Shown here: positions 3 to 58,197 of the stretch, one piece after another
Layout: each line of letters starts with the position of its first letter
Position numbering within the stretch: the stretch's first letter is position 1
Origin: a bacterium
GTDB lineage: Bacteria > B130-G9
Assembly: GCA_021160245.1 (NCBI GenBank)
Contig: JAGHCW010000154.1
Span: 1-58,197, forward strand
Length of the DNA stretch: 58,197 nt
Direction of reading: 5' to 3'
Translations under genes and position numbers: made by a program
Notes under the pieces: generated by a model
The model's input: the letters and a program-made list of their open reading frames with translations, nothing else
Told to the model about the DNA's origin: nothing
The model's database searches: none

Positions 3-677
3 GAGTTGCTTGGGCTGAGGCAGCGTTTTGTGGTTGCGTTGGTCGGCAATCGGCATCTCAAGTGGCGTCGAGGCGTGGCTTTGGCGCGGGATATTTCGGT
101 TCCGATGCGTTTTGAGGCGGAGATCGTGAAGAGGCGGAACGGGCGTGAACGTTTGGAGAAGATTACGTTCGGGAGCGTTTTGGTTGAGTTACCTCGTATT
201 AAGGAGCAATTGCGGTTAGTGAAGGTGCAATTTAAGCGTGGGGGAACGCTCCTTTTGCTGACGAATGTTGAGATGAAGAACACGCTCAAAGATGTCTTAT
301 GGGTAGCACGAGCTTATGTTGCCAGGTGGCGTGTTGAGGAGGTGATACGTTTCATTAAACAGAGCTATAAGTTGAAAGATGTGCGATTACGCAGTTACAA
401 TGGGCTTCGCAATATGACGGCTTTGGTGATGGCTTGCGCGAGTTTCGTGAGCCTGCAACTCGGCCTTCAGGCGAAGCTTCAGATTCTGACGAGGAAGTTG
501 TTTTGCACCTCTCAGCGAGTTGGAGACATCATCAAGAACTTCAGGTATTACGCCATAGCGGACGGACTGAAGGAGACCTTACGCTCCTCAGCGAACCCCT
601 GGCGGGAGCCAAAGCCACCGTCCTCCCACCAGATGACCATCCTCCTGGCAGCACCCACAGGAGGCTCCCTCATGTGA
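3..677 (+). CDS. IS4-family transposase, C-terminal part (5' end outside window)
   Basis: The reading frame is already open at the left edge, so only the last ~224 residues of a DDE transposase are visible. The C-terminal catalytic region carries the IS4-family Y-x2-R-x3-E-x6-K signature, read here as YVARWRVEEVIRFIK (about residues 101-115 of the visible part), which contains the catalytic Glu. The end, with FRYYAIADGLKETL, matches the usual C-terminus of this family, so the 3' end looks intact. The gene ends 77 bp before tRNA-Pro. The codon for the TTG at position 6 is internal, not a start. Whether the element is active, and where its inverted repeats lie, cannot be seen because the upstream half is missing. 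Confidence 0.8.
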   Translation, partial: ELLGLRQRFVVALVGNRHLKWRRGVALARDISVPMRFEAEIVKRRNGRERLEKITFGSVLVELPRIKEQLRLVKVQFKRGGTLLLLTNVEMKNTLKDVLWVARAYVARWRVEEVIRFIKQSYKLKDVRLRSYNGLRNMTALVMACASFVSLQLGLQAKLQILTRKLFCTSQRVGDIIKNFRYYAIADGLKETLRSSANPWREPKPPSSHQMTILLAAPTGGSLM

Positions 678-24900: not shown

Positions 24901-24909
24901 TTGAGAACG

Positions 24910-30450: not shown

Positions 30451-33400
30451 CTATTCAAATATCCAACTAGCGCTCGCGAGATTGCTTGCGATCTCCATGT
30501 CACAAGAATTGCCGTTGAATGCCGCTACATAGAATGTGTACTCACCCTTGGGCATGAAATCGCCGAACCTGAATCGCACTATCTCCATCGGCCCTATTGA
30601 GGCGCCCGGATCGAGCCTGACGAATACTGGCTGCGGGTCCATCGACCAGCCAGGATAGTACAAACATGTGCCATCCGGTAGAATGACCGCGCCAAGAAGA
30701 TCAACTGGCCATTCCGCTGATTCGTTTTCGATTCCGAACGTCAGAACAAGCTCCTCACCGGCCTTCACGATGGACTTGTCCGTGGCCAGACTGACCTCTA
30801 GCCCTACTCCCCCTGGCCCGCCTTCGGTGCCCTCTCCCAGTAGGGCAACCGTAACAACCGGCTCGGCCGGGTCGTTGCTGTAGATATTCAGTGTGTGCAT
30901 GAACTGGCCAACGGATGGCGGATGGAAACTCAGGTAAACCAACTGCGAGCCGCCGGGCTCAACCGTGAAGGACCAATCGCCGGGCGGGGAATGTTGGGTC
31001 TCATAGAACGTCCCTTCAGGAGTGCCGCTGATCTCAAGCCTGCTGACAAAAAGGTCGCCCGAGCCTACGTTGTTTACGTAAAGCTCGCGGCCCTCGTAGC
31101 CGTTGACTACCATCTGGCCAAAGTCGATAGAATTAACACTGAGGTCGATATCCGGGCCCCCCGTGGGACCCCCACCTGTAACGCCAGTTCCGCTGACCTG
31201 AATGGGCGTGGGGCTGTTAGGATCGTTTGACCGTATCTGGAACATCGTGGAATACGAGCGAGCCTGGTCAGGCGTGAACTCAATCGTCATCGTTATGTAA
31301 GAATCCATCTGAACGAATCTCGGATACCAGGAATAAGGCCGTCCATCCTCGAAAGCCGTCCCAAAACCAGCCTGCGACAGGCCATAGACATAGAGGACAG
31401 CGCCCATGCCTTGAGGGTCCCTGTCGTTATACACCCTGAAGGTCATCTGGTCGGTCTGTCCAATAGCGACAGCGCCAAAATCTAAGTTCATCGGCTCAAC
31501 TCTGATATGAGGCGCTGAGACTGACATCTCCGACGACCCAATCAGATCAATAACCAGAGTCCCCTCATCTGGGTCGTTACTCGTAACGGTTGCGGGGGCG
31601 GCGAAGCTCCCGATGAAAGGCGGCGCAAACGTGACGTCAAAAGTGCTGCTCATTTGCGGACCTATTGTCATGGGGAACATCGCATCGATTGAGAAACCCG
31701 GGACCATTGCATCAACTGCAACGCTGGAGACCTCAAGATCGAGGAGGCCATCGTTGAATACCTCTACCGTAACCGTTCCGCTGTTTCCGGGCATGACCAT
31801 GCCAAAGTCGATCACGCTGTGGCTGAGTCTGATATCCGGCTCATTCGCTGCGTACGTTGTGACGCAATCCGGCTCAAGCGGCGGTCGCTCCACGTTGCCA
31901 GCGTTGTCCGTAGATATGGTATAGAACCTGTAAAGGCCATAGCCATCTCTTGGACGGAACGATATCTGGCCGTACTGACCTGTTCTTGTGATATGCGTCG
32001 TCAAGAAGGGCCCTTCGTTATAGCTATACCACAACGTCGTTCTGTCAATGCCACTCGTATGTTCGACAACACTGAAGTCAATTGTTATCCTCGGGTCCAA
32101 GACTAAGTCCGGTCCAGTGCAGAATGATGAAGGAGGCGACACATCATAGATTATGCTGCAGTCCGGCTCTGTCCTCTCCGACTCAACGTTGCCGGCCCAG
32201 TCGTCTGCTGCGGATATGAAATCGTAGAAACCCTCTCCCTCACGTGCCCAGAAGCTGAATGTTCCCGCGGCTATCTCCATCGAAATACCGGGGTCTTCCC
32301 ATTCGTCCGGTGGCTCAAGATCAGCATAGCGCCGGAAGCGATAGAGCAGTTTAACGCCTCGCACGCCGCAGCCATCCTCGTCAAATCCGACGTCTGGGTC
32401 CTGGGCGCTGAATTGAATCGAGAGAGGCGATCTATTTGCAAATATATCGCTTGAGCAGGTTGAGATGGGGGCTGTCGCGTCATAGAGGAGGAAGCATTCC
32501 TCATCCGTCTTTACTGGCTCGATATTGCCCGCTGTATCCTGGCAGAGCGTATAGAAGCCATAGACTCCCTCGCCGTTGGTTAGTTCGAAATCAAAGGCGC
32601 CGGTGTTTCCAGTCTGCGAGAGGCCCGAGTCCATCGGAGCGCTCGAATTGAATGTGTACCAGAGATAGACAAGCACCGGGTCCGCTCGCTCATCCGCGGC
32701 CACGAACGTGACAGCAACCGCCGTTTCATTCGTAAGGGTTGGGCAGAGGCACTCGGAGACGGGGGCCTGACGGTCCACGATACTCACTGTGTCTGACATG
32801 TCAGGTATCCGCTCACGATGGCCCGCCACATCAATAGCTTGTGTGTAGAACGAGTATTCGCCATCGCCGGCGGTGGGGACGTCAAACGTGAAGGTTCCCT
32901 CGGTCGCCGAGATCACCATGCCGGAGTCCTCAAACTCGTCTCCATTGTAGCACCAATAGAGTCGGACTCGTTCGACACCTGTTACCCCGTCAAACGACTG
33001 ATAGCTCACCTCGATCGAGTCTCCGGTAACATAGTCAGGAGATTCACACCAAGAGCTCGGCGGCTTCGTGTCCAGCAGAGTAATGGAATCTGCCGTTTCA
33101 GGCGCATCTTCTATATTCCCGATGTGGTCCTCTGTGATCGTGTAGAACTCATATCTGCCCTCGACGACTCTCCCTCTCTTATCCACATCAGGATAGCTTA
33201 GGGGAACCCTTAGCCAGACGTCAAAGAGCCCGTGTGCTCCGGAACGGGTAAGGCCGGTGTCCGTCCACTCGCCATCCTCGTATCTGTAGAACAGCTTCAC
33301 AGACTTCAGTCCGTTGTTCAATTCAGTCGCCTGATAGCTGACCTGAATCTGATGTGTAGTCGTTATCTCCGGCGACATACAGAGAGAGGATGGAGCCAAA

Positions 33401-36400
33401 ACGTCAAAATAGACCGAGAGCGAATCCGGAAGAAGCGACGCATTCTCCACGTTGCCCGCGGCGTCAATCGCTACTGTATAGAACTCATAGGTTCCATCGC
33501 CTCGCTTGGGCACAAACCGGAAGACGCCGGAAGGCCCTGAGCATCTCGTCGGCAGAAGTTGCCAATCCTCAAATGAGAGCCGATGCCACAGCTGGACCTC
33601 GACAATTGCGCTGACATTATCTGCGGCCGAGTAGTCAAGATATATCTCGCTATCAGTCAGTCTGTTTAGAGTACACGCTGACTGCGGAGCGGTTTCATCA
33701 TAGATAATCGAGGTCTTGGCCGATGAAGGTCCGAGCTCCGGATTACCCGCCATATCCACGGCGACCGTTGTGAACTCTAAGTTCCCCTCGCCAACTCCCG
33801 ACGCGTCGAAAGCAAACGTATCCTCGTCGCCTGGCATTGAGAGTCCACTGTTCTCCCAATCGCCGCCAGCCAACCTGTAATAAAGCGTTGTCGAAGCAAC
33901 ACCTGTGAACTCGTCGTGAGACCTGAATCTCACCGGAATGGCCGCCTCAGTTATATAGCCGCCATCGTCCGCCCAACAACTGGAGACCGGGCGGCACGTA
34001 TCATAGGACGTCGTGCTGTCCGGCGCATCACTGCCAGTAGGCGCTGCTTCCTGATTGCCGATGTTGTCTCGAGTGACCGTGCGGAAATCATAGACGCCAT
34101 CGCCTCGGTTGACATTGAACTGAATCGTCCCGGATGTGCTCTGTCGAGCCTGACCGCTACATGTCCACGCGCCACCGTTAAATCTAAACCATAGCACCGT
34201 GTGGAAGATACCGTTAACACCCTCGCTAACGAAACTGACCGGAATAGGCATCGCGTCGTCATATTCTGGCGAGATGCAAGACGACTCCGGGACAGCGCCA
34301 TTAAATAAGCACTCGCAGTCGGCGGTAGCCGGCGCTTCCTCAACGTTCCCTACGTAGTCCTCCGCAATTGTGTAGAATTGATATATGCCCTCACCGTCTG
34401 TGGGCACGAAATCAAACACACCTGTCTCCTCGTAGGCTGCCAGCTGAGAGTCTGTGAAATCGAGGGGCCATGACGCGCCTGAACTGAAGCGATACCAGAG
34501 GGCGATTGATTTGACGCCGCTCTTGTTGTCACGCGAGGTGAAAGTCACGGGGATCAGAGGCTCTGTGACCTTGACCGGGCAGTCGCACGTTGACTCTGGA
34601 GCTCTGGGGTCTGGGACCCATTCATCAAAGACGAAGAGCTCGTGCCCAACCGTTATGTAAACAAAGCCGTAGGAATCCAAAGAGGGACTCGAATCGACCG
34701 GAATCCCAAAGTCATACGACCAAAGCAGCGTGCCGTTAGGGTTGAGACAGTAGAAATAGCCATCATCGCTCCCGAAATAGACCCGCCCAGCCTGGTCAAC
34801 GACCGGCGAGGAGACTATCGGTCCGTCGGTATCGAATTGCCAGTTGGCCGTTTGGGTAACCGGATCAACCGAATATAGGGTTCCGTCCATCGATGGCACA
34901 TATACCGTACCGGCAGTCGGGTGAACCGCTGGGGACCCCACAATCGGTCCGCCCGTGGCGAACGTCCAAATAGCTGGGCCGGACGTTGAACGTCCGTGAA
35001 GGACACCCTCCTCTGTGCCGCAGTAGAGCTGATTCTCGTCATGGCTCAAAGTTACCGAAACGGTCGTAATAGCGCCGGGCACTGAGTATGCCCATCTCTG
35101 GCTGAAATCTGGGCGGAAGCAATGCGCAGTATATGTCGCAGCGCCGCCGTACGTGAAATAGATGTTACCATCGGAATCTATGGCCGGCGAGCCCACGACT
35201 GGATAGCCGTAAGCGCCCTGCATGGAAAAGCCCATACCACCTGTGTCTGCGGCAACTGGATAAACAGCGCCATCTTCACACGGGACATAAATCCATCCGT
35301 CATCGCCAACAGTTGGCAAAGCAGTGATCTCCATCGAGTTACCAGTCAGAGGAAGCGGATTTACTACCCAATCTGGATTCGGCAGACCGTCCGGGGTAAT
35401 TGACATCAACGAGCCATCTTCAAGACTCATGATGACGTTGCCTAGATGATCAATGACAGGGCCGAGGCTCGTCGGTATCCCGGATGGGTATGCCCAGTCG
35501 AGCCGTCCGTTAGGCAGAACTGCATAGAGCGTCCCATCTGTGGCCGTAACAAAGAGCCTGGCCGTCTGGTCGATGGCAACCGTGTCGTTGAGATCATACT
35601 CACCGAAAGACCTTGCCCACTCAACCTTATCGGTCAGCGGCCCATCAGCGTCCATGTAGCCCCTGTGGCCTCTGTCGCATCCTTGCATCGGCCAGAGCTC
35701 GCTACAAACCGCAACCCAATAATATGAACCGATGTCGCCGGGATTATGGAGCGCAATTTGAACGTAATATGTGCCACTCTCGTTGCACATGAAGCTAACG
35801 CTCGCGTTGTCACCTACGCCGCCCTGCGTGTCGCTGTCCACCAGCGTGAGGTCCCCGCAACTACCGGAATAAACGAAGACGTCAGTATCGGTAATTACAT
35901 CGTCAATACCGTATGTGAATACGCGGTACCTAATGCCCTCAAGGGCCTCAAATTGAAGCCAATCCTCATCCCCATGAGGCGCGAGCGTGTGATACTGGCC
36001 GACACAATCCGCTTCAATTGGGATTGCGTCACTGCAGACGTCATCGTCCTCATAATCATCTACCTCATACGCGACTACGCTTATGTCGTAGTTATGCGCA
36101 ATAGCGACCGGATAGATACCGTCCCAGCCACCATGTGTGACCATAAGGAAATAGTCATCGTCGGCAGGGCACTCCCACCAAAGCTCCGCGCCCCCACCAT
36201 TACCCTGCGCGCCATCCAAGTATGATGCTCCAGGGCAGGTCCCCGAGTAAACGCCGATATCGGTATCCGCATCCAGCGAGAGGTGATGTGTCCTGAAATA
36301 ATAGTACCAAGAGCCATGCAATGTGGGCATACTGAACCAATCCTGATCAGGTCCCAGGCGATCATAAATGAGGCTATGGTCCTCGTATTGTGGGAAGCCT

Positions 36401-38928
36401 GTGCCCGGATCCAAAATTGGAATTATCCGCGCCTCGCCACAGTTGTTATCGTCCTCGAATTGGTCATAGACGTAAACACCGTCAAAATAGCCATTGTCGC
36501 CGGGGGTCGCGATAGATGGATATTGAGCGATCGTCCGACCCTCGTCATCAACGCCGTAGTAATAGCCGAAATAACGCCCACGTGGCAAAGCGATGTTGCC
36601 TGTTCTCCAGGTGTCGCCCCCAGCTGAGTTCAGCCAGAAATCGTTGTCGAAGGGATTACTCAGGTCATCTGTCAGATAAGCATACCTGAGAATTGGGTCC
36701 GCGAGCTCCTCATCGACGAAATCGACTTGTAGCGTAAAAGAGTTGCCCTCTTGAACCTGAACGTATTCTGTCCCGTTCATAAGTTCCGGGAGCCCCTGAA
36801 CCCTTAATGAGGCGCCAATGTCATGGCCAAACCAGCTGATCTCGAATTCGTCTGGCAAAGCTCCCCCACCAACGAGTCGTTCGGGGAAGGAATAAGAAGC
36901 CCAGACGTTGCCATCAAGGATGGATGACGATGGATCAGTCGCACTGGGGGTGAATGAATCCCAGTAAGTATAGCTATTCCCCGCGTCATCGTTATATATG
37001 AAGACGCGAGAGACGCCATCGTCTGTGCCGAACATCACATTCTCAGTAAATGGATAAAAGGCGTAACCTGGCGCCCGCGCGCCCAGGTAGTTTACGCTCA
37101 AGCAGCGAACATCGTCCGAGCGCAGTCCGGACGTACCGCTCTGATAATTCGTCCAGGTTAGGGTGTTGCTGTTGAAGCGGGAAACCCCGTTATCCGTCGC
37201 CACCCAAATAATATCGTCCCCAATCGATCCCACGTCAGTTACGTTATTTGAGACGAGGCCATCGGCCATCGTGTATTGCACGGCGCCACTTGTCCCTCTA
37301 TACAAACCCTCCCCGGTGCTGCCCAGCCAGATATCGCCCTGGCCGTCAATCGTTATCGAGGTCAACTCACTGCCCAGTAGAAACGGCCCGAATGGAGGAG
37401 CTCCATCGAAACTGAAGCCGCCGTTGTTGGTCACCACCCATATAATGCCGGTTGCTTCATCAATATAAATATCATTGATATGGTCGTCTGGTATGTCAGG
37501 AGTAGTGTAAACAGTCATTGCGCCAGTGCCGACATCAAGACCGACCAAACCAGCCTCGGTTCCGATCCAGGTAGTGGCTCCATAGGGTCTAACGACGGAA
37601 GTAGTCGGGCTGGGGAGGCCATCCGCCTCGAAATAGTTCGACCAATTCACCCCATCGAACCAGCTAACGCCGCCGAGGGCTCCGAACCACGCTTCTTCGT
37701 AACTCCCGTTGGGGTCGCCATAAACCGAGGTTATGTCATTCGAGATGAGCTGGTCATCATACTCGAAGTCCCCAACAAGATAACCAGATGTGCCGAAATA
37801 GCGGGTCCAAATCCTATTGACAGTACCAAAGTAAACCTTGGTGTCGAACGGAATCATGGTCGCCCCTGTAGCCTCAATATCGTTCACAACTTGTGTGATT
37901 TCGCCAATCACCGAAATGGTGCTTCCTGAAGAACCTGTCAACGTCCAATAGGCCGCGCCAGCGTCGGTCCCAATCCAGAGGTTGCTCTCATCGTCAAACT
38001 CAAGAGATAGCACGCGGTCGGAAGGAAGACCGGCCCTGCCATCGATTGAGTTAAACCTAAGGCCGAGCGCGCTCATATCGCCCGCCGGGAAATGGGCAAT
38101 TGTGCCCGCACTCCCACCTGGCCCGTCGTCAGCCCACAAGCCCACTAGTCCATAGTCTTCCATTCCACAGAAGACTATTTCCCGCAGACCCGGCTCAGTT
38201 GCGCGAGCAACTGCATTGACGTTGTTACTGGGCAATTCACTGTTATTTGTATCCCAGTACTCAAATTGAATATCCATTGCCATCGGGATAGTTCGAATAA
38301 CTCCCTCTCCGACACTGCCCATCCATATTCTTCTATCCATCTCGCCACTGCCTTCGATGAAAATCGAGACTATATTCGGGTTGTCCGATGGAAGGCCATC
38401 AGTGCTGTCCCACGTATCCATAGTATAGTCATCGAACATGCCATAATAGATATAGGCAGGCCCCTGATCCGTGCCTATGAATATGACGTCTTCACCAAAC
38501 GAACCATTCAAAGCCTGAACATTGTCGGAGGGTAGGTCTGAATCGGCCGCTGTGAAGGAATAGCGGATTATACCTGTGTCAGGCTCAAATCCATGAAGAC
38601 CATATCCGTCCGTGCCAAGCCACTTTATATCGTAAAACTCCATATTCAGACGATCATAATGTCTAGACTTCGCAAGCGCCTGAATGTTATTCGTCGGAAG
38701 CCCATCTTCGGTCGTCCACTTCTCAAATGAAGCGGTAGTATCCGTGATATTGTAAACTCGCAACAACCCGCTGTTGGAAGCCCCCGCCCACAGCTCCTCG
38801 TCATCTAGAAGGAGCGTCGTAATGTCATCACCATTTACGAAATGCTCCCAGAACAATCCGATAGCCGTCGCGGCGAAGAGACTGGCAATCACCGAGACCA
38901 ATACTATCAACCGCCACCTTGATACCAT
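30451..38928 (-). CDS. Giant exported protein A (2825 aa): Reg_prop propeller, 2 PPC, PQQ propeller, 9 Ig-like, 3 ASH, C-terminal module
   Basis: A hydrophobic N-terminal segment (residues ~6-26) serves as signal or anchor. Residues ~35-690 are Reg_prop blades (W-[IV]-G-[TS] and LPS-[ND]-N motifs). Residues ~705-820 are an Ig-like spacer. Residues ~821-945 and ~955-1076 are two PPC domains (D-x-F-E-D-D-x-x-C; G-D-E-D-W). Residues ~1078-1435 are a PQQ-type propeller opening with WPMQGCDRGH and blades ending S-P-x-x-[DH]. Residues ~1438-2361 are nine Ig-like modules. Residues 2362-2709 are three ASH domains (D-F-G-x-[MV]). Residues 2710-2825 are the shared C-terminal module. No enzyme, kinase or beta-barrel was seen. 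AGGAGG lies 8 nt before the ATG. It is the last gene of the giant tandem, 120 bp after B. Confidence 0.88.
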   Translation of the reverse strand: MVSRWRLIVLVSVIASLFAATAIGLFWEHFVNGDDITTLLLDDEELWAGASNSGLLRVYNITDTTASFEKWTTEDGLPTNNIQALAKSRHYDRLNMEFYDIKWLGTDGYGLHGFEPDTGIIRYSFTAADSDLPSDNVQALNGSFGEDVIFIGTDQGPAYIYYGMFDDYTMDTWDSTDGLPSDNPNIVSIFIEGSGEMDRRIWMGSVGEGVIRTIPMAMDIQFEYWDTNNSELPSNNVNAVARATEPGLREIVFCGMEDYGLVGLWADDGPGGSAGTIAHFPAGDMSALGLRFNSIDGRAGLPSDRVLSLEFDDESNLWIGTDAGAAYWTLTGSSGSTISVIGEITQVVNDIEATGATMIPFDTKVYFGTVNRIWTRYFGTSGYLVGDFEYDDQLISNDITSVYGDPNGSYEEAWFGALGGVSWFDGVNWSNYFEADGLPSPTTSVVRPYGATTWIGTEAGLVGLDVGTGAMTVYTTPDIPDDHINDIYIDEATGIIWVVTNNGGFSFDGAPPFGPFLLGSELTSITIDGQGDIWLGSTGEGLYRGTSGAVQYTMADGLVSNNVTDVGSIGDDIIWVATDNGVSRFNSNTLTWTNYQSGTSGLRSDDVRCLSVNYLGARAPGYAFYPFTENVMFGTDDGVSRVFIYNDDAGNSYTYWDSFTPSATDPSSSILDGNVWASYSFPERLVGGGALPDEFEISWFGHDIGASLRVQGLPELMNGTEYVQVQEGNSFTLQVDFVDEELADPILRYAYLTDDLSNPFDNDFWLNSAGGDTWRTGNIALPRGRYFGYYYGVDDEGRTIAQYPSIATPGDNGYFDGVYVYDQFEDDNNCGEARIIPILDPGTGFPQYEDHSLIYDRLGPDQDWFSMPTLHGSWYYYFRTHHLSLDADTDIGVYSGTCPGASYLDGAQGNGGGAELWWECPADDDYFLMVTHGGWDGIYPVAIAHNYDISVVAYEVDDYEDDDVCSDAIPIEADCVGQYHTLAPHGDEDWLQFEALEGIRYRVFTYGIDDVITDTDVFVYSGSCGDLTLVDSDTQGGVGDNASVSFMCNESGTYYVQIALHNPGDIGSYYWVAVCSELWPMQGCDRGHRGYMDADGPLTDKVEWARSFGEYDLNDTVAIDQTARLFVTATDGTLYAVLPNGRLDWAYPSGIPTSLGPVIDHLGNVIMSLEDGSLMSITPDGLPNPDWVVNPLPLTGNSMEITALPTVGDDGWIYVPCEDGAVYPVAADTGGMGFSMQGAYGYPVVGSPAIDSDGNIYFTYGGAATYTAHCFRPDFSQRWAYSVPGAITTVSVTLSHDENQLYCGTEEGVLHGRSTSGPAIWTFATGGPIVGSPAVHPTAGTVYVPSMDGTLYSVDPVTQTANWQFDTDGPIVSSPVVDQAGRVYFGSDDGYFYCLNPNGTLLWSYDFGIPVDSSPSLDSYGFVYITVGHELFVFDEWVPDPRAPESTCDCPVKVTEPLIPVTFTSRDNKSGVKSIALWYRFSSGASWPLDFTDSQLAAYEETGVFDFVPTDGEGIYQFYTIAEDYVGNVEEAPATADCECLFNGAVPESSCISPEYDDAMPIPVSFVSEGVNGIFHTVLWFRFNGGAWTCSGQARQSTSGTIQFNVNRGDGVYDFRTVTRDNIGNQEAAPTGSDAPDSTTSYDTCRPVSSCWADDGGYITEAAIPVRFRSHDEFTGVASTTLYYRLAGGDWENSGLSMPGDEDTFAFDASGVGEGNLEFTTVAVDMAGNPELGPSSAKTSIIYDETAPQSACTLNRLTDSEIYLDYSAADNVSAIVEVQLWHRLSFEDWQLLPTRCSGPSGVFRFVPKRGDGTYEFYTVAIDAAGNVENASLLPDSLSVYFDVLAPSSLCMSPEITTTHQIQVSYQATELNNGLKSVKLFYRYEDGEWTDTGLTRSGAHGLFDVWLRVPLSYPDVDKRGRVVEGRYEFYTITEDHIGNIEDAPETADSITLLDTKPPSSWCESPDYVTGDSIEVSYQSFDGVTGVERVRLYWCYNGDEFEDSGMVISATEGTFTFDVPTAGDGEYSFYTQAIDVAGHRERIPDMSDTVSIVDRQAPVSECLCPTLTNETAVAVTFVAADERADPVLVYLWYTFNSSAPMDSGLSQTGNTGAFDFELTNGEGVYGFYTLCQDTAGNIEPVKTDEECFLLYDATAPISTCSSDIFANRSPLSIQFSAQDPDVGFDEDGCGVRGVKLLYRFRRYADLEPPDEWEDPGISMEIAAGTFSFWAREGEGFYDFISAADDWAGNVESERTEPDCSIIYDVSPPSSFCTGPDLVLDPRITIDFSVVEHTSGIDRTTLWYSYNEGPFLTTHITRTGQYGQISFRPRDGYGLYRFYTISTDNAGNVERPPLEPDCVTTYAANEPDIRLSHSVIDFGMVMPGNSGTVTVEVFNDGLLDLEVSSVAVDAMVPGFSIDAMFPMTIGPQMSSTFDVTFAPPFIGSFAAPATVTSNDPDEGTLVIDLIGSSEMSVSAPHIRVEPMNLDFGAVAIGQTDQMTFRVYNDRDPQGMGAVLYVYGLSQAGFGTAFEDGRPYSWYPRFVQMDSYITMTIEFTPDQARSYSTMFQIRSNDPNSPTPIQVSGTGVTGGGPTGGPDIDLSVNSIDFGQMVVNGYEGRELYVNNVGSGDLFVSRLEISGTPEGTFYETQHSPPGDWSFTVEPGGSQLVYLSFHPPSVGQFMHTLNIYSNDPAEPVVTVALLGEGTEGGPGGVGLEVSLATDKSIVKAGEELVLTFGIENESAEWPVDLLGAVILPDGTCLYYPGWSMDPQPVFVRLDPGASIGPMEIVRFRFGDFMPKGEYTFYVAAFNGNSCDMEIASNLASASWIFE
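31848..34611 (-). repeat. Nine Ig-like modules in giant protein A (protein-level repeat)
   Basis: Units of about 95-110 codons. Each begins P-x-S-x-C-x-x-P, has a central [LV]-W-[YF]-[RS]-[YF]-N-x-G segment, and ends with G-x-Y-x-F-Y-T-x-[AS]-x-D-x-A-G-N-x-E followed by a late Cys and Y-D. Copies are strongly diverged, not recent DNA duplications. Confidence 0.8.
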
Positions 38929-39017
38929 ATCGAGAACCTCCTAATTCAGCAGTTAGAAGACATCTTAATTACTATGACGATAGTACTCTAACCAGAGTGT
39001 TGTTAATGCTATATAGA

Positions 39018-39047
39018 ATTATATCCTTGAGCTTGGCTCCTCGCCAA
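39018..39047 (-). promoter_or_regulatory. Possible internal promoter between giant genes B and A
   Basis: On the minus strand TTGGCG (39047-39042), an 18-bp spacer and a perfect TATAAT (39023-39018). It lies just downstream of the B stop codon and 90 bp before the A start. This B-A gap is twice as long as the other gaps in the tandem. Confidence 0.35.
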
Positions 39048-39048
39048 T

Positions 39049-47151: not shown

Positions 47152-47209
47152 ACCGATTAACCTCCGTCACTTATTCGAGTTGTTCTCATTAGGCATACTC
47201 GTAATTATC

Positions 47210-50200: not shown

Positions 50201-53200
50201 CATCTCGTCCGTCGCTACGATGAAGAAGTCATACTGTCCCTGACCGTAGGTGGCGTCGAAAGAAAATGTCACGAGTCCAGTCTCAGTATCGAAGCCGAAC
50301 GTATCAATTCCACTATCTTGCCACTCGCCCTGGTTAAACCTGTAGTAGAAGCGAATGGTAAAGGTCTCAGAAAAGAAGTCGGTTAGAGCGAATTCATCAA
50401 TGATAAACGGAGTGCTGCTGAACGCGGGAGGCGCGCCGAGGACTAACGTCGTCGGAGGGCTTGTATCATAAAGCGTTTGCGAATCGTAATAATAGACAGG
50501 GGAGTCCTCAATCAGACCGGAGCAATCGGTTGCCCGGGTGTAGAAGGCGTAATAGCCGTCGCCATCGGGTGGAGAGAACATGAACGTGCCCGTCTCGCCG
50601 GCCAGTGACGAGACCGTCGCCGCGGCCGCAATTGGCGCCCAACTATCGCCATCAAGACAATGATCATAATAGAGTGTTGTCCAAGCGACTCCACTGCCAT
50701 CATCAGCGGAGACGTAATCGACAGGAATCTCCGGAGCATTACTGGAAAGCGGGCTTGAGCACTCAGACCTCGGAGCCGTGTTATCGACCATAGGTCCGTA
50801 ATAAACGCCAGTCTCGGGGGCTCTTGCTACGCCACCATAGCCATCCTCAAACAGGAAATAATAGGTGTGCAATCCTTGCTCGGCGAATTGCGTGTCGAGC
50901 GTAAATATAAACGTATATGGGTCGCTGCCCGGCTGCCAATCGGAGATGTGATATGACACGTCATCAAGCACGATGAAGCATTTCGCAGGGAAATCGTAAT
51001 CAATGTCCTGATAAGTTGTGAAGAACCGGAATGTCTCGGCGGTACTTCCAGCAGCCGGAATTACGCCTGTATTCCCGACCGGATCAGTTACAAGGTCCGG
51101 CTCCGCATTCTCGCTTGCAATAGCATACATCGTATTGCCTGCAACAAAGAAGACCTCATGGTCAAGTCCGATTACTATGGAGGATACTATCGGCTGGCCA
51201 ACATCGCCGGCATAGAGAACGTCAATTCCCGGACCGGTTGGCAGCTGCACCTCACCCATGAGAAATAGGGAACCACTCTCAGAACCCACATAAACGTGTC
51301 CGGCGCCATCGACCGCCGGCGCGTGACATATAGGTCCGCCAGTGTCGAAGCTCCAGTTAAGACTCAAAACCCCTTCGTCCCTGTTCAACGCGTAGAAGAT
51401 GCCGTCTGTGGAACCGAAGTAAAAGCTGTCGTCACCACCAAACGCTCCGTGGCCCTCAATCGCGCCTCCTGTTTGGAATGTCGAGATCGGTGTGTTGAAG
51501 TTGTTCGGGGCGAAGCTGCGCATAATGCCGTCATCTGCCCCAACATAGACGTAGCCATCGCTGTCAACTACGGGGGAGGTGCGGATCGGGTACCCAACCG
51601 TCCCCTGGTTGTTGATGCTCCCGTTGCCGGTATCTATATTGTATAGTCTCCCTTCGGTACAACCAATATAAAGCTCGGACTCGTCGGGAGAAAGCGCGGG
51701 CGAGGAATTCAAGAACGGGCAGGCAACCTGTCTGTCCCACCTCAACGAGCCGTTGGGCTCAAGTGAGTAAACGCCACCGTCAAAAGAGGCGAAATAGATG
51801 TTCCCGTCAGAATCTACGACCGGCGAGGAGTAAATCCCCGCGCTCAAGGGGCCAGGGTATGGGTAGCGCCAGTAAAGCGCTCCATTTGCAGAGTACACCG
51901 CATAGAAATAGCCTTCTTGAGTGCCATAATAGACCACTGAACCATCGGGCGAAAGCGCCGGAGAACACATAACGGGATCAAGATCAAACGGCTCATAGAC
52001 CCATCTTTCCTCAAAATCAGGGGACAACGACACGAGCCGACCATAATCCGCCCCGAAGTAGAGATTGCCCGCACCATCAATTGCAGGTGTTGAGGCGATG
52101 GTCGGGCCAGTCGTGTATGTATGCGCGACCTGATATTCCCTCGGACCGATGGATGCCGCAGTCGCTGGCCTTGTGCCAACGCGGCCCAGCATCGGCCATT
52201 GGTTTCCTGATATAGAGATGCTGTAAACCCCGGCGCTCTCGAGCGAGGAGCCCGGGGAAGCGTTGTCGATAACCCTTAGGAAATAGTAGCCCGCGACCTC
52301 TGCTACAAAGGGGAACGGCGCGGTCGAATCGCCGCCCGGATTCGGCGCAAGGGTACAGTCATCGAGATAAATCTCCACCTCGACGGCAGCCCCAGCCGCG
52401 GCATTCAGCGTTATGGTGTATTCAATATCGGTATCTGCCCTGAAATAGAACCAGTCTTCGTCCGTTCCCAGTGGCACGAGGTTGTGGCCCGAGTGGACGC
52501 TCCCGTCAGTCCATATAAGCGCTGCGTCCATACATCTGTTATCCGGCTCAAAACCGTCCCAGGTATCAGGACCCGTGAATGTATCTTGCGGATACCTAAC
52601 TTGACAGCCATCACTGTCAGCAAAGACGAAATAGTGGACCCAATGGCCGGAGTCGAGCGCGAGCGTAGTTGCATAATTCCCGTTATCCGGTGAGCCGGAT
52701 ACGAGTTCCATATCGTAAGGTGAGGCGCTCTGCTCGTCACGACCGACGAAGACCTCCGCGCTAATCGGCGCGAAGCCATCCACATCCATGTAGGTTACTC
52801 CAAACGTATAATCAGTAAGCGGTCCACTCAATGCGGGCTCTAGCGTCGCATCCAAGAGAACGGGCATGCCCTGCCTGAGGACCGAGGCGCCTCCTCGCGT
52901 CGCAAGCCAAAGGCCTATGCAAGGCTGGTAGCAGAGATCATAGACATTATCGTTAATCAAGCCACTGTTCTTTGTGGTGAAGCGCTCGCCTGTCATCGTG
53001 CCATCGGTGAACTTCGTTAGGCCGCGGCTCGTGGCTATCCAGACTGTATCGCTCGAACCAAATATGATGGAGTTTATCGTATTGCTTCCGAGTCCCGACC
53101 CGAAATCGCTGGTCCTGATCGTCGTCCAGACATTTTGAGCTCTATCAAACTTACTAATGCCGTTGGTCGTCCCGATCCAGATACAGCCGTTCGCATCAAC

Positions 53201-54904
53201 CGCGAGGCAGCGGACGTTCTCGGACACGATGTCACTATTGCCCTTGTCGTAGGTTACCCATGTATCGTTCTCGAGGTCTAAAACGGCGATTCCCCAGTTG
53301 GTTCCTATCCAAAGATAGAACTCGCCGCCGATCGCCTGTCCAGCGAGGCTAGTTATGTAGTTTGAGCGAAGACCGCTGTTCGACGTTGTGTAAGTGTCCC
53401 ACTGCAAAGTGCTGCCTGTGGCGTAACATGCAAGACCGTTGTCGGTACCGAACCACGTCCTGATAACGCCGCCAGTAGCCGGCCTCGGATCAAGCTCTAC
53501 GGCCATGACGCGGTCAGAGGGAAGGCCGCCGGCGCTGTTGGATGTGTCCAGCGTCTGCCAAAACGAGATGCCGGGCTCGTGGAAGGAGACGCCGAGGTTC
53601 GTGGCGAACCAGACGGCCCCATTGCCGGAACGGTCATCCGTCATGACATCATTTATATAGTTGGAGGCAATTGCATCATCAGGGGCGTAAGTATAGGTTG
53701 ACCAGATGCCACTATTCCCGGCGTTCGCGTCCCATTCTAGCGAGTTTGCTCCGCTGCCGTAAGTGCCTATCCAAACTTCGGTGTCGGAATTGGCAATTGC
53801 TCTTAGGTCGTTATCGGCAAGACGATTCTCAAACGTGCTGTGCCATGAGCCATCGTATCTACAGAGGCCCTCGTGGGTCCCAACAAGGCGGGAGTTGCCG
53901 TCGTTGATGACGCCTCGGACGTCGTTAGAAAGCAGGCCGCCGCTCGTGTTCTCGAACGTGGCGCTTCCCCAAGTGGTGAAGTCAAAGGCTGTTATCCCCT
54001 GTTCCGTCCAAATCCAGAAAAATGTGCTAACGCCGCCCGTGTCATGCATCAAGATGCCGCGCATGTCGTTCGAGAGGATGTTGACGTCGGTCCATGTGCC
54101 AAACGTCTGCCAGTTGTCGCTTATGTCAACGCAAGCCGCGCCGTTGTCCGTGGTAAACCAGACCTCGCCGCACGTGAGTCTTTCGGCCGCGCCAGTCACG
54201 AAATCTGATGGCAATCCGCTGTTTGCCATGTTGTAGTGCCGCCAGCTGTCGAATATCCTGTTCAAACAGGAGACGCCAGCGTCCGTTCCGATGAACACTC
54301 TATTGTGCGTGTCAAAATAGATCGTATTAACACAATCGGAATTGAGGCCGTTCGACGAATCGTAACTGCCGGTCCAATCGCCCACACCCATATCATAGAT
54401 CGCAATGCCTCCGTCCTGTGTCCCGATCCAGACCTCGTCACTATTCGGGTCTACTACGATAGTCGTGACTAGGTCGGAAGGAAGAGCGCTGTTTGCGGAA
54501 TTCATGGCCGGCCAGAAGGCGAAGTCTGCCGGGGCCGGTTCGGACGTATCAATAACGTTTATGCCTTGATTACAGCCCAACCACACCGCATCATCAGCTA
54601 TCGCAACGGACGTGAACGAGTTCGTTAGGAGCTCGTCTCGCAATAATACTAAGACATCATCACTGGACCAGTTCTCGTCCGAGTAAAGGTCCGGCTGGGT
54701 CTTGAGAAACTTGCAGAGCTCATCCCCGGCCATGTCCCACAAAAGTGTTCCCCCACCGTTGGTAACGGCCCAAAGCGATTCATACTCCCCGGCGATACCA
54801 TTGATGTCATCGCTGTTAACCCGAACATACCATTCCTGGCCGAAGACCGCCGAGCCCCAAAGACACAGCAGCGACATGAGCAATACTAGTAGCCTACCTC
54901 GCAT
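47210..54904 (-). CDS. Giant exported protein C (2564 aa): Reg_prop propeller, PPC, PQQ propeller, 9 Ig-like, ASH, C-terminal module
   Basis: A signal peptide of ~22 residues (LLVLLMSLLCLWGSAVFG) is followed by Reg_prop blades (~25-678) with regular W-[IFL]-G-T units. Residues ~680-780 are an Ig-like spacer. Residues ~782-900 are a PPC domain (FEPDNRC; DEDWFYF). Residues ~901-1265 are a PQQ propeller beginning QWPMLGRVGTRP. Residues ~1265-1372 are a second Ig-like spacer. Residues ~1374-2337 are nine Ig-like modules. Residues 2339-2446 are one ASH domain (HDFGMLSIG). Residues 2447-2564 are the C-terminal module. The frame is open from an ATG at 54925, but GGAGGG (54911-54916) lies between that codon and ATG 54904, so the latter is the start. 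It lies 55 bp after D and 58 bp before B. Confidence 0.88.
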   Translation of the reverse strand: MRGRLLVLLMSLLCLWGSAVFGQEWYVRVNSDDINGIAGEYESLWAVTNGGGTLLWDMAGDELCKFLKTQPDLYSDENWSSDDVLVLLRDELLTNSFTSVAIADDAVWLGCNQGINVIDTSEPAPADFAFWPAMNSANSALPSDLVTTIVVDPNSDEVWIGTQDGGIAIYDMGVGDWTGSYDSSNGLNSDCVNTIYFDTHNRVFIGTDAGVSCLNRIFDSWRHYNMANSGLPSDFVTGAAERLTCGEVWFTTDNGAACVDISDNWQTFGTWTDVNILSNDMRGILMHDTGGVSTFFWIWTEQGITAFDFTTWGSATFENTSGGLLSNDVRGVINDGNSRLVGTHEGLCRYDGSWHSTFENRLADNDLRAIANSDTEVWIGTYGSGANSLEWDANAGNSGIWSTYTYAPDDAIASNYINDVMTDDRSGNGAVWFATNLGVSFHEPGISFWQTLDTSNSAGGLPSDRVMAVELDPRPATGGVIRTWFGTDNGLACYATGSTLQWDTYTTSNSGLRSNYITSLAGQAIGGEFYLWIGTNWGIAVLDLENDTWVTYDKGNSDIVSENVRCLAVDANGCIWIGTTNGISKFDRAQNVWTTIRTSDFGSGLGSNTINSIIFGSSDTVWIATSRGLTKFTDGTMTGERFTTKNSGLINDNVYDLCYQPCIGLWLATRGGASVLRQGMPVLLDATLEPALSGPLTDYTFGVTYMDVDGFAPISAEVFVGRDEQSASPYDMELVSGSPDNGNYATTLALDSGHWVHYFVFADSDGCQVRYPQDTFTGPDTWDGFEPDNRCMDAALIWTDGSVHSGHNLVPLGTDEDWFYFRADTDIEYTITLNAAAGAAVEVEIYLDDCTLAPNPGGDSTAPFPFVAEVAGYYFLRVIDNASPGSSLESAGVYSISISGNQWPMLGRVGTRPATAASIGPREYQVAHTYTTGPTIASTPAIDGAGNLYFGADYGRLVSLSPDFEERWVYEPFDLDPVMCSPALSPDGSVVYYGTQEGYFYAVYSANGALYWRYPYPGPLSAGIYSSPVVDSDGNIYFASFDGGVYSLEPNGSLRWDRQVACPFLNSSPALSPDESELYIGCTEGRLYNIDTGNGSINNQGTVGYPIRTSPVVDSDGYVYVGADDGIMRSFAPNNFNTPISTFQTGGAIEGHGAFGGDDSFYFGSTDGIFYALNRDEGVLSLNWSFDTGGPICHAPAVDGAGHVYVGSESGSLFLMGEVQLPTGPGIDVLYAGDVGQPIVSSIVIGLDHEVFFVAGNTMYAIASENAEPDLVTDPVGNTGVIPAAGSTAETFRFFTTYQDIDYDFPAKCFIVLDDVSYHISDWQPGSDPYTFIFTLDTQFAEQGLHTYYFLFEDGYGGVARAPETGVYYGPMVDNTAPRSECSSPLSSNAPEIPVDYVSADDGSGVAWTTLYYDHCLDGDSWAPIAAAATVSSLAGETGTFMFSPPDGDGYYAFYTRATDCSGLIEDSPVYYYDSQTLYDTSPPTTLVLGAPPAFSSTPFIIDEFALTDFFSETFTIRFYYRFNQGEWQDSGIDTFGFDTETGLVTFSFDATYGQGQYDFFIVATDEMNNQQDYENAQNFMISVFYDVITPESAASCADYTRILPIVVNYTASDDATGVDTIRCYLKYKSDVSWTEITPDINIAPAARALSSSFAYNPNPAQWQSEGIYRFYTRARDVAGNWEPAPQDETDPDCAIVYDISDPNSVCIAADVFSQGDIPVSFLGSDNVAGLAEVRLFYSFNDGDYIRSTYVSDADAGVFQFTAANGDGVYRFYTIAVDNCGNIEVPPKTYDALSNCDTQPPDSSCRCSSTSRMIPIRVSYSATDAGSEVVETGLWAKHDDGEWVDTGMSLEGPSGTFEFYPMAVSGTYYFLTQSVDAVGHQEPFKDEADCSSEIIYAEPSSRGFCDPYTNVAPIVISYETSPFIYSMELAYTYEGGAWQDYITEATVLTGYLEFDPPEGEGYYEFLLHATDLGGNREGIKGVDCTTVYDTVMPESTCSAPDATWRHFVDVQFSASDDRSGPSSVELWYKYTDPDDSSRDIGWESSGHIETLTEGTFKFVFNHGLGIYDFYTRTTDNAGNVEPMLLTPKATTRYEIGAPSSRCWVNTSPISQHLTGDSDNPLEILFTASDANGNSSGLEEVRLFYAYRVFAPTPINDWTGDDIDWRYTGQALPADAGFFHFYPQDGNGEYAFYTQAIDSAGNEQERPLLKFNVPDGVPYWDAYITYDVIPPMSECSCDDWHVTDGLIAIDYVADDDPFLSESWPENDFDTSGVYRTYLWYRYEGGVWTQYDDPDYYTEAGIFLFYPPECNGTYEFYTRAEDEANNREPAPAYADCTVICGPAEPEIDIPVLSHDFGMLSIGAERQWLLRINNHGTGNLLISSIYSNNLDTFYLSDTNRSIAPGDWLDFPVVFCPWTVGVTDTTIMIYSNDDNLPITQVAVSGTGLGPLGPTLFLKAPARVIGDGQELEASIGIAGVFEDVEADLYIAAMLPTGELCYFPDWTTNPTGISVSLPAGLNTPPLPFLRFEYNEGELPKGEYKLFAALVEPGTRYNFMTEVAEIRWVLF
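47893..50785 (-). repeat. Nine Ig-like modules in giant protein C
   Basis: Diverged units of about 90-130 codons with the same opening and closing motifs as in A and B. The longest, nearest the ASH domain, carry insertions in the central loop. One module (near 50180-50440) lacks the closing A-G-N and reads M-N-N. Confidence 0.8.
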
Positions 54905-54910
54905 CACAAC

Positions 54911-54916
54911 CCCTCC
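54911..54916 (-). promoter_or_regulatory. Ribosome-binding site GGAGGG deciding the start of giant gene C
   Basis: It sits 6 nt before ATG 54904 and inside the longer open frame that begins at 54925, showing that the shorter start is used. Confidence 0.7.
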
Positions 54917-54959
54917 AACGCACATTTGGTTTTGGGCGAAATTATCTCGAACTTATCCA

Positions 54960-57900
54960 CTACTCTACAATTATCGTAAGAATGTTGATCTCGCCTATAA
55001 CATCGAATTCTGTGTCAGTTACTACCAAGGCTCCATAAAGAGTGTATTCTCCGCTCTGCATACTATCGTCCAGGACAACGTCGAGCAGCGGAACCGGTCC
55101 CATTTCCCCGTTTTCGTCAAGCGCAACTCGCATCGGCGTTGGCTCCATCATCCAATTTGGATAGAAATGGAGGGCTTCCTCGCCAGGCAAGCGAAGAGCA
55201 ATGTAGGCGTCAACGACCCGCGCCTCGCCCGGATTGTTCAACCTCGCGGATAGCACAAGACGATCATCCTTGCTGACGAATATCCCCGTGCTCGAGAGCT
55301 TGATCTTCGGAGATAGTTCGTCCGTGCCTTTGCCCACAACATTGGCACAAAGGTCTGCGCTGCCATACTCGCTGAGTTCGACTCCAATCGTGCCCTCGAA
55401 TAGCCCTGCTTGATGAGGCGTAAATGTTATATCGATAGGAAGCATGTCGCCGGGCTGAATCGTCGTCGGACCATCCCAACTGGCTGTGAAAGCCTGGGAA
55501 CTCGAACGGACATCTTCAACAGTGATGGCAGACGCGCCCGCATTGCTGATCTTAAGTACCCAATTGCTGCTTTCGTCAACCAGGACCTCACCGAAATCGT
55601 GCTCATCCTGAAGCAGGGACGCAGATGGCTGACCTGGCGCGTAGAGCATGCTGAGATCCGGGTCAATAGATGCGGCTTCGCTGCGGCCCACATTGTCAGT
55701 AGCAATTGTATAGAACCTGTAGTTGCCGGGGCCTTCGGGGGCTGTAAATCCTATTACGCCACCCACACTTCCCCAAGCGACTCTGTATTTTGAATACTCA
55801 CCCATCTCAAAGGAATACCAGAGCTCGACCGAGACGATACCCGAGGCGTCGTCGCTGGCTTCATAGAGGAGCATGATCGGCAGAGAGCTAGCCACTGCGG
55901 GTCCCTGGACGGAGGACACCGGGGGCTCTAGATCGAATAAGCTCTCGCAGTCGGAAAATGGAGGGTAATCCTCGCGGTTGCCGGCCGTATCCTCCGCTAC
56001 TGTGTAGAATTCGTAACGTCCGCCACCCTCAAGAGGCATGAAGAAGAACTCGCCGCCATGCGGTGTTCCCATGAAGCCATAGTCGGATTGCTTCCACAAT
56101 TCATCGTTGTATTTGTAGTAAAGATATACGTTATTCAGGCCGCTGCCCACATCGCTGGCACTGTAAGTTACGATTAGGGGAGGTTCCATCGTTATATGCT
56201 CACACCATGACATCGACGATGGCGCCTGGATATCGTAATAGGTTGAGCAATCACCGTCACCTATTGCGGCATCCTCATTACCGGAGTAATCGGTCGCAAC
56301 GACGGCAAAGTAGTATTGACCCTCACCTTGTGTCAGGGGATAGGAGACTTCGCCCTCCCTGAAGGGGACTGTGTATGGAGTCCGCATCCACTCGCTCGTC
56401 TCATATCTAAACCAAAGCGTTACCTTCTCAACTCCGGCGGTTACATCATGAGCGACAAAGGAGACATCAATGCTCATCGCGTTGACTGCCTCTTTGCAGG
56501 TTGCGGTGCATACGGGAGCCGTAATGTCGGAGATGCAAGTAGCATCTGGAACCGATGGAGGCAGCTCTACGTTGCCGGCAAAGTCAGCCGCAATCGTATA
56601 GAACTCATAAACGCCATCCTGGGCTGCTGTGAATGGAAATCTATTCTCAGCGCCCGTATTTCGGTGTCCAGCATGATAGTACGGTCCGCCGTTCAATCTA
56701 TAATAAAGGTCCACTTCACCTACTCCGCTCCCCGGATCATCAAAGGTGAATGGAACGTCGAAGTTAGTCCCGGCGAATTCTACAGTGGAGCAGCTCGACT
56801 CCGGGGCGGTGTTGTCATAAGAGAGCTGTACCGGATAGTGCCACGTCTGGCGATTGCCTGCCTTGTCAACGGCGATCGTATAAAATGTGTGCCATCCTTC
56901 CTTGAGCGCTGTGTATATGAAAAGGCCACCATCCTGGTTGAGCGTGTGCGGCCAAAGATTGTAAGTCGAGTCATCCTCGTCAAGCATATACCACAGCTCA
57001 ACGAAATCCACGCCGCTCTCGTCGTCCCATGCGGTGAACGGCAATCGGAGCGCGGGCGATGTGAAGGCCTTATAGCCCGGCGTCGTGATGTAAGAGCCCG
57101 GGCCATTCCAATCCAGAACGACCATGCAATCCGCCTCACTCGGGAATTCCTCAACAAGGTCAGAGTTGTTTGTTGCAATCGAGCAGAACTCATAATTACC
57201 GGACGAGCTGGCGGTATATGTGAAAACGCCGTAGGACTTGAATGAGGTGAGGCCCGTTCCTTCCCATTCACCACCCGGATTCCGCACATACAGAGCCACA
57301 GAACGAACGCCGCTCTCGAGGTCCTCGGCGCTGAAGTGGAGTGAGAATTGACTTGACTGCGTGTATGGATCGGTCGTGCCATCAAGGAACGCCGCGGAGT
57401 CCGGGGCCGTGTCATCGACAACAGGTCCGGAGAAAACTCCACTTGCGGGGAGCTTCAGAACATTTCCGGAAGCTTTCTCAAAATAGAAGTAATAGGTGTG
57501 CTGTCCCACTGGCAGATCGCCGATAGAGAATGAATATGTGCCATTGTATGCGGCTCCATCAGCAAGCGCCATCTGGTGGGGAATGCCATCAATATAAACA
57601 TGCGCGTTCACGAAGTAGTCTAGGCTTGCGACCTCCACATCGGGATCGAACATATAGACTGAATACTCAAATTCTGTGCCGGTTCCAGGGGCCTTCGGGT
57701 CTGCAGGAACGCCGGACTTGGGTGATACTAGATGCGCGGAGAGGTCCGGCTGATGGTTCTCCAGAAAGACGCTAACGCCACCGCCCGTCGTTGCAAACCA
57801 CTTGTTATCGTCCATGTCAACGGTGACCCGCGTTACGATATCGTGTGAGGGCCCACCGGTTGAGCGGTTGTAGGCGTTCCAGACGTTATCCGCGAAGACT

Positions 57901-58197
57901 GACACGCCATTGTCCGTGGCTGCCCATAGTTTGCCTGCGCCGTCAATCGCCATATCGTTAATCATGTTTGAACCGAGGCCGAGGCCAGCAAAATGAGTCC
58001 ATCGGTCAAGGAGATAACGTGCAAGGCCGTTCGATGTGCCAAACCACTTGCCGCCCTGGCAGTCATCCGCGACGCAACTCACCAGGCAGTTGAGCGGCGC
58101 TTCCGTCGCGCCATAGACCTCCCATTCAGCGTAGTTGTATCTGGAGACGCCCATCTCGGTGGAAGCCCAGATATCGAATTCGTTATCAATATATAAG
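54960..58197 (-). CDS. Giant exported protein D, C-terminal part (5' end outside window): Reg_prop blades, 6 Ig-like, ASH, C-terminal module
   Basis: At least 1078 residues are visible. The frame stays open past the internal ATG at 58154 to the window edge, where it reads FDIWASTEMGVSRYN, a typical Reg_prop blade, so the true start is outside. The visible part runs through the last blades, an Ig-like spacer ending GPVVDDTAP, six Ig-like modules, one ASH domain (HDFGEVLVD) and the C-terminal module. Unlike A-C, the spacer leads straight from Reg_prop to the stalk with no PPC domain or PQQ propeller, so D is a shorter variant. It lies upstream of C by 55 bp and is probably the first or an early gene of the operon. 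Confidence 0.85.
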   Translation of the reverse strand, partial: LYIDNEFDIWASTEMGVSRYNYAEWEVYGATEAPLNCLVSCVADDCQGGKWFGTSNGLARYLLDRWTHFAGLGLGSNMINDMAIDGAGKLWAATDNGVSVFADNVWNAYNRSTGGPSHDIVTRVTVDMDDNKWFATTGGGVSVFLENHQPDLSAHLVSPKSGVPADPKAPGTGTEFEYSVYMFDPDVEVASLDYFVNAHVYIDGIPHQMALADGAAYNGTYSFSIGDLPVGQHTYYFYFEKASGNVLKLPASGVFSGPVVDDTAPDSAAFLDGTTDPYTQSSQFSLHFSAEDLESGVRSVALYVRNPGGEWEGTGLTSFKSYGVFTYTASSSGNYEFCSIATNNSDLVEEFPSEADCMVVLDWNGPGSYITTPGYKAFTSPALRLPFTAWDDESGVDFVELWYMLDEDDSTYNLWPHTLNQDGGLFIYTALKEGWHTFYTIAVDKAGNRQTWHYPVQLSYDNTAPESSCSTVEFAGTNFDVPFTFDDPGSGVGEVDLYYRLNGGPYYHAGHRNTGAENRFPFTAAQDGVYEFYTIAADFAGNVELPPSVPDATCISDITAPVCTATCKEAVNAMSIDVSFVAHDVTAGVEKVTLWFRYETSEWMRTPYTVPFREGEVSYPLTQGEGQYYFAVVATDYSGNEDAAIGDGDCSTYYDIQAPSSMSWCEHITMEPPLIVTYSASDVGSGLNNVYLYYKYNDELWKQSDYGFMGTPHGGEFFFMPLEGGGRYEFYTVAEDTAGNREDYPPFSDCESLFDLEPPVSSVQGPAVASSLPIMLLYEASDDASGIVSVELWYSFEMGEYSKYRVAWGSVGGVIGFTAPEGPGNYRFYTIATDNVGRSEAASIDPDLSMLYAPGQPSASLLQDEHDFGEVLVDESSNWVLKISNAGASAITVEDVRSSSQAFTASWDGPTTIQPGDMLPIDITFTPHQAGLFEGTIGVELSEYGSADLCANVVGKGTDELSPKIKLSSTGIFVSKDDRLVLSARLNNPGEARVVDAYIALRLPGEEALHFYPNWMMEPTPMRVALDENGEMGPVPLLDVVLDDSMQSGEYTLYGALVVTDTEFDVIGEINILTIIVE
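55645..57410 (-). repeat. Six Ig-like modules in giant protein D
   Basis: Units of about 95-100 codons. The leading cysteine is less regular than in A, while the closing G-x-Y-x-F-Y-T-[IV]-A-x-D motif is well kept. Confidence 0.75.

Follow-up and report, generated by a model that had tools for sequence, protein, structure and literature searches.

The four giant genes A, B, C and D described here form a conserved array behind pheST that, on balance, probably encodes Sec-exported, long surface binding proteins. The window analysed (58,197 nucleotides) is an entire contig (C86) of a 3.43-Mb, 244-contig MAG (G000) of Candidatus Coatesbacteria, an uncultured bacterium, and the four ORFs adjoin each other on its minus strand. 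If this reading is true, an almost unstudied phylum devotes about 30 kb at one conserved locus to four giant propeller-tipped stalks, which would offer a handle on how Coatesbacteria attach to surfaces, polymers and other cells.

An array of four giant genes behind pheST

A sequence-only reading of this DNA had reported a tandem of four giant genes on one strand with gaps of 55, 58 and 120 bp and a ribosome-binding site wherever one could be seen, and the ORF coordinates and start sites (Table 1) agree with it. The gaps are counted from the starts that are preceded by a ribosome-binding site, and an AGGAG- or GGAGG-like site lies upstream of each start; around D, patterns resembling promoters and terminators occur no more often than shuffled sequence would give. 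The extent given earlier, at least 27.7 kb, is a lower bound because the array runs off the end of the contig, and grows to about 30 kb with A complete. The protein family to which nearly half of the window was assigned reaches far beyond the window: a search of G000 with B returned 212 matches, many of them other giant ORFs with a stalk.

Table 1 Positions of the four array genes, their parts and a small relative in the window
Feature	Position	Strand	Detail
Gene A, 3' part	54960-58196	-	1078 aa; 5' end open at contig end
A, last Reg_prop blades	~57744-58196	-	
A, Ig-like spacer	~57417-57743	-	
A, 6 Ig-like stalk modules	~55641-57416	-	then ASH and terminal domain
A, terminal Ig-like domain	54963-55307	-	
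Gene B	47210-54925	-	ORF of 2571 aa, opening with a signal peptide; start 54904 if the GGAGG-preceded ATG is taken
B, 14 Reg_prop blades	52850-54841	-	then Ig-like spacer
B, PPC-like domain	52181-52555	-	
B, PQQ-like propeller	51026-52180	-	
B, 9 Ig-like stalk modules	47891-50785	-	then ASH-like and terminal domain
B, terminal Ig-like domain	47213-47575	-	modelled, pLDDT 91.7
Gene C	39049-47151	-	2700 aa, opening with a signal peptide
C, 14 Reg_prop blades	44992-47067	-	then Ig-like spacer and PPC-like domain
C, PQQ-like propeller	43213-44361	-	
C, 11 Ig-like stalk modules	39760-43212	-	then ASH-like and terminal domain
C, terminal Ig-like domain	39052-39420	-	
Gene D	30451-38928	-	2825 aa, opening with a signal peptide or N-terminal membrane segment
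D, Reg_prop region	36829-38838	-	then Ig-like/PPC-like part
D, PQQ-like propeller	~34624-35601	-	
D, 9 Ig-like stalk modules	31852-34611	-	
D, three choice-of-anchor D/ASH stretches	~30829-31851	-	then terminal domain
D, terminal Ig-like domain	30454-30801	-	
Small relative outside the array	3409-5565	-	718 aa: Reg_prop blades, three PKD domains, quartet-type terminal domain

The 5' part of A very likely lies behind pheT on another contig of the same genome (C32; L132:10284-12683), where a 799-codon Reg_prop ORF ends 41 bases before the contig end. This ORF aligns with residues 20-795 of A from a second Coatesbacteria genome (G001), and the window part of A with residues 790-1871. Because these matches are complementary and the ends of C32 and C86 have a 15-base string in common before they diverge, the join is very likely on sequence comparison.

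Our sample of the phylum consists of four Coatesbacteria genomes (G000-G003) from one family and three genera, with pheS and pheT named by sequence reading. One contig of G001, which represents another genus, carries pheT, A (1871 aa), B (2536 aa), C (2654 aa) and a D that the contig end truncates; the intergenic gaps measure 55, 40 and 102 bp. A second G001 contig opens with the remainder of D (query residues 948-2635, 58% identity). The order pheS, pheT, A (1856 aa) and a cut B is found in G002, from the third genus; orthologues of C and D were not found in this genome (86% complete), where the contig breaks off within B. In G003, of the same genus as G001, the end of A and start of B lie on one contig and the end of B and start of C on another. 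Besides the three gaps of G001, a gap of 55 bp is recorded in these other relatives. The quartet is kept together in these relatives, its order held in G001 and G002 and in fragments in G003, and is not scattered as single genes. Chance ORFs and an assembly artefact are ruled out by the orthologues in the three other MAGs.

Identity between orthologues is mostly 50-57% (59% for the B fragment of G003), as against 26-30% between paralogues within the array, and because orthologues are closer than paralogues the array is older than these genera and has been kept since. Comparing G000 with G001 by domain, we find identities of 55% (A), 64% (B), 62% (C) and 57% (D) for the Reg_prop region, 56% (B) and 65% (C) for the PQQ-like propeller, 53-58% for the stalk, 38-46% for ASH and 46-60% for the terminal domain. 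The Reg_prop tips of B, C and D, at 57-64% vs. 38-46% for ASH, are among the best-conserved parts of these proteins. Judged from these identities, the constraint on the tips at least equals that on the rest of the protein, which fits a binding role that is kept, not one that changes fast.

Other parts of the window deserve mention in their own right. A 1820-aa fusion at 12177-17639 (plus strand) joins a Ser/Thr protein kinase, an AAA/TPR region and a GAF domain to a sigma-54 activator that has a Fis-type helix-turn-helix; a regulator that runs from kinase to transcription in one chain is unusual. Downstream of D on the opposite strand, an exported protein of 1421 aa with ZU5 and PKD domains (24901-29166, plus strand) gave no match to the quartet-type terminal domain. 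A transposase-like ORF (3-677, plus strand; named by sequence reading) is cut by the contig start and adjoins tRNA-Pro (755-831).

Three propellers on an Ig-like stalk

In B, C and D the same order of parts recurs: two Reg_prop propellers (14 blades), an Ig-like spacer, a PPC-like domain (assigned by sequence reading, without a Pfam match), a PQQ-like propeller, an Ig-like stalk, ASH and the terminal domain. Blades were counted with a profile built from the quartet proteins, which detected all 14 in C; in B it picked up 13 and left a gap the size of one blade, in D 11 with gaps that would bring the count to 14, and in A 20 with room for one more. The common architecture proposed earlier is therefore right for B, C and D but not for A, which has 21 Reg_prop blades and neither PPC nor PQQ propeller; its complete relatives likewise have 21 Reg_prop blades, six Ig-like modules and neither of these two domains. 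A uniform four-fold architecture is ruled out on these grounds. The stalk, described before as 9-11 modules, has that length in B (9), C (11) and D (9), but only six modules in A. All four proteins nonetheless present three propellers, A with three of the Reg_prop type and B, C and D with two Reg_prop and one PQQ-like.

Matches to Reg_prop, the PQQ-like/ACSF4 propeller, Big_13, ASH/HYDIN and choice-of-anchor D are well over noise. D scores 106 bits with choice_anch_D (NF012200; cut-off 45), and B and C exceed the cut-off for OmpL47-type modules (NF047446). The likeness to NF012200, ASH/HYDIN and OmpL47-type proteins is at the domain level and does not name a function for the whole proteins.

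A C-x3-YD-x3-P-x-S-x-C motif recurs at many module junctions in the stalks of A-D and could be an inter-module disulfide. When pairs of cysteines separated by 9-14 residues at the stalk junctions were tested as disulfide staples, the 14 observed did not differ significantly from shuffled sequence (mean 8.0, maximum 17). Giant stalk ORFs occur elsewhere in these genomes (6033 codons on G001:C84, 4262 on G001:C120, 4020 on G002:C382 and 3628 on G000:C162), without a Reg_prop tip among the matches listed.

A terminal domain with about a hundred copies per genome

The last ~115 residues are common to all four proteins. A model of this domain from B is a confident Ig-like sandwich (pLDDT 91.7), for which Foldseek returned generic Ig-like folds only (RhoGDI, CARDB, the Wzt C-terminal domain and GH3) and Pfam, NCBIfam and the PDB gave no sequence match. 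A profile of the domain matches 109 times in G000, 111 in G001, 140 in G002 and 33 in G003. Outside the phylum, three of 141 sampled genomes have at least 17 copies and three have one; the former (G050, G079 and G089), with 17-31 copies each, belong to unrelated lineages.

Our census covered 60 stretches around matches, with 76 ORFs whose 3' end is complete, and in 72 of these the domain lies at most 30 aa from the stop. The cargo of 49 members comprises beta-helices (13), Reg_prop (9), subtilases (3) and C25 peptidases (3), as well as PKD and sortilin-like propellers. In about a dozen secreted proteins, however, the domain follows immediately on the signal peptide (L075, L083, L088, L095, L105, L113, L122 and others), which rules out a strictly C-terminal placement; of three such proteins tested, two are without any Pfam match. 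Within the window, other cargo bearing the quartet-type domain is seen in the 718-aa Reg_prop/PKD protein (Table 1), adjoined by a Wzt-like ABC ATPase that is extended at its C-terminus (2146-3375, minus strand; sequence reading).

Export of the quartet proteins, already claimed in the sequence-only reading, is well supported by sequence features: signal-like N-termini are present on the complete quartet proteins and, by a simple heuristic, on 67 of the 69 terminal-domain ORFs with a closed 5' end vs. 15 of 47 other ORFs of the same stretches. BamA is encoded in all four Coatesbacteria genomes, from which we conclude that the lineage has an outer membrane. Secretins are also present in all four, and SprA was detected in none of them by a search that was positive in 56 of 145 genomes; for this lack of SprA we reject a place in the type IX system. 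With BamA and secretins present, the outer membrane may be crossed by way of a secretin.

A tentative proposal, which we consider doubtful, is that the terminal domain may serve as signal or anchor in a system for sorting or surface attachment that is not yet described, with ~100 clients per genome, in a diderm candidate phylum where SprA is not detected; the quartet would then be either the largest of the conserved clients or a component of the surface machinery. If the reading of the array given at the outset is right, around a hundred exported proteins per genome bear one common terminal domain, and terminal-domain sorting of the type IX kind outside that system becomes testable.

Predicted role and relation to known systems

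Under the reading that we favour, each polypeptide would cross the inner membrane by Sec and then reach the cell exterior, where the terminal Ig-like domain (~115 aa) would hold or sort it and a stalk of 6-11 Ig-like modules would carry the three propellers outward. The tips would bind ligands, for which polysaccharides or glycosylated surfaces are the likeliest candidates, and the four diverged paralogues could differ in specificity or be the four components of a single structure. Binding is the most likely role by analogy with solved sensor and PorZ tips and with the SPEARE precedent, and the ligands are probably polysaccharides, glycans or cells. The structure prediction that had been suggested for the propellers was run on the B tip (777 aa) and gave two propellers and a sandwich (pLDDT 80.8), a model that bears on this reading within the limits of a pTM of 0.58, an alignment of 9 sequences only and a likeness to sensors as well as binders. 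Its best fold matches in the PDB are the sensor domains of BT4663, BT3049 and BT4673, followed by PorZ (5m11; TM 0.54-0.56), and a sequence search of the PDB with the B tip agrees on the three sensor domains; the B stalk has no relative in the PDB by sequence. Of the earlier description as surface-exposed or fibrous binding proteins, the binding part is favoured by the solved tips and SPEARE; exposure at the surface or in a fibre, like orientation, the sorting role of the terminal domain and glycan binding, is what we infer.

The proteins could instead be periplasmic or outer-membrane-associated scaffolds or sensors, with propellers that serve as BamB-like protein hubs or sense ligands on behalf of signalling partners encoded separately, since the nearest solved tips are periplasmic sensor domains, the PQQ-like propellers match BamB and the search turned up no translocon of the outer membrane dedicated to the terminal domain. 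We think this unlikely. No histidine kinase or response-regulator domain was matched in A-D by Pfam and no transmembrane anchor is fused, the 6-11 Ig-like modules would, if straight, be far longer than the periplasm, and the proteins that bear the terminal domain include subtilases and C25 peptidases, families that are usually secreted. For the PQQ-like propeller the nearest solved structures are designed propellers, 3hxj and BamB, and with 37-44 bits against a cut-off of 285 for TIGR03300 (BamB), the likeness to BamB is that of the propeller fold alone.

PorZ, which consists of two Reg_prop-type propellers and a CTD, suggests another role, in which the quartet would be accessory to some unknown machinery for surface sorting and handle other terminal-domain proteins, not external ligands. 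The fold match of the B tip is in line with this, as is the fact that the quartet is single-copy and conserved, compared with ~100 terminal-domain proteins per genome. We nevertheless regard it as improbable given the absence of SprA from the search results in all four genomes, the lack of an Ig stalk and a PQQ-like propeller in PorZ, and scores with the PorZ family (NF052228) of 53 (D), 74 (C) and 56 bits (B), under the curated cut-off of 260.

That the four genes mean nothing specific, being neighbours by chance within a large family of modular giants that is drifting, is very improbable. The many giant stalk ORFs among the matches to B would allow it, and part of the B stalk is closer to an ORF on contig C202 (37%) than to C or D, but order and intergenic distances are held over three genera, orthologues resemble each other more than paralogues do, and Reg_prop-tipped giant ORFs occur only in the array among the matches listed for B. 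Least probable of all are secreted enzymes in which PQQ-like or Reg_prop propellers would do the catalysis, as a dehydrogenase or lyase for instance, and the stalk would only position them, for although D weakly matches a PQQ-dependent alcohol dehydrogenase (24 bits) and a lambda-carrageenase propeller, all enzyme matches are far under their cut-offs (24 of 480 bits) and the nearest solved PQQ-like propellers are those listed above (BamB, 3hxj and designed propellers).

Searches of Pfam, NCBIfam, the PDB and a collection of papers found no described family of this composition, and among the papers retrieved on giant or propeller proteins SPEARE was the sole relevant precedent. The Bacteroides hybrid two-component sensors (BT4663, 4a2l/4a2m; BT3049, 3v9f; BT4673, 3ott), of which BT4663 is titled in the PDB as heparin/heparan-sulphate sensing, resemble the quartet in having 14 Reg_prop blades and then a beta-sandwich, but continue into a transmembrane segment, kinase and regulator where the quartet has the PQQ-like propeller, Ig stalk and terminal domain. 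PorZ is likewise exported and has two seven-bladed Reg_prop-type propellers, as found in B, C and D (A has ~21 blades), and a terminal Ig-like sandwich; at ~750 aa, it differs from the quartet in being without Ig stalk, PPC and PQQ-like propeller. A glycan-binding role has been proposed for its propellers (PMC5121618), and PorZ is reported to deliver anionic LPS (PMC8545088). With type IX C-terminal domains the quartet-type domain shares the fold of a small Ig-like sandwich and a position at the very end of many otherwise unrelated exported proteins in one genome, including C25 peptidases; it differs in length (~115 vs. ~70-80 aa), in occurring also behind the signal peptide and in the lack of SprA, and the C-termini of B, C and D gave no NCBIfam match to a known T9SS C-terminal domain and an empty PDB profile search. 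The SPEARE-type giant surface proteins of nanohaloarchaea, with propellers on an Ig stalk and a proposed role in host-cell binding (PMC10266531), share the signal peptide, PQQ-like propellers near the N-terminus and a long Ig-like stalk. They are archaeal, 8,880-9,409 aa long, and have at their C-terminal end a membrane segment, a VirB4/TraG-like ATPase and a coiled coil, whereas the quartet is without these, Pfam matching no VirB4/TraG-like ATPase and the C-terminus being the Ig-like terminal domain. The parts themselves are known; in the sources searched, neither their combination nor the conserved quartet nor a terminal domain spread across the genome is described.
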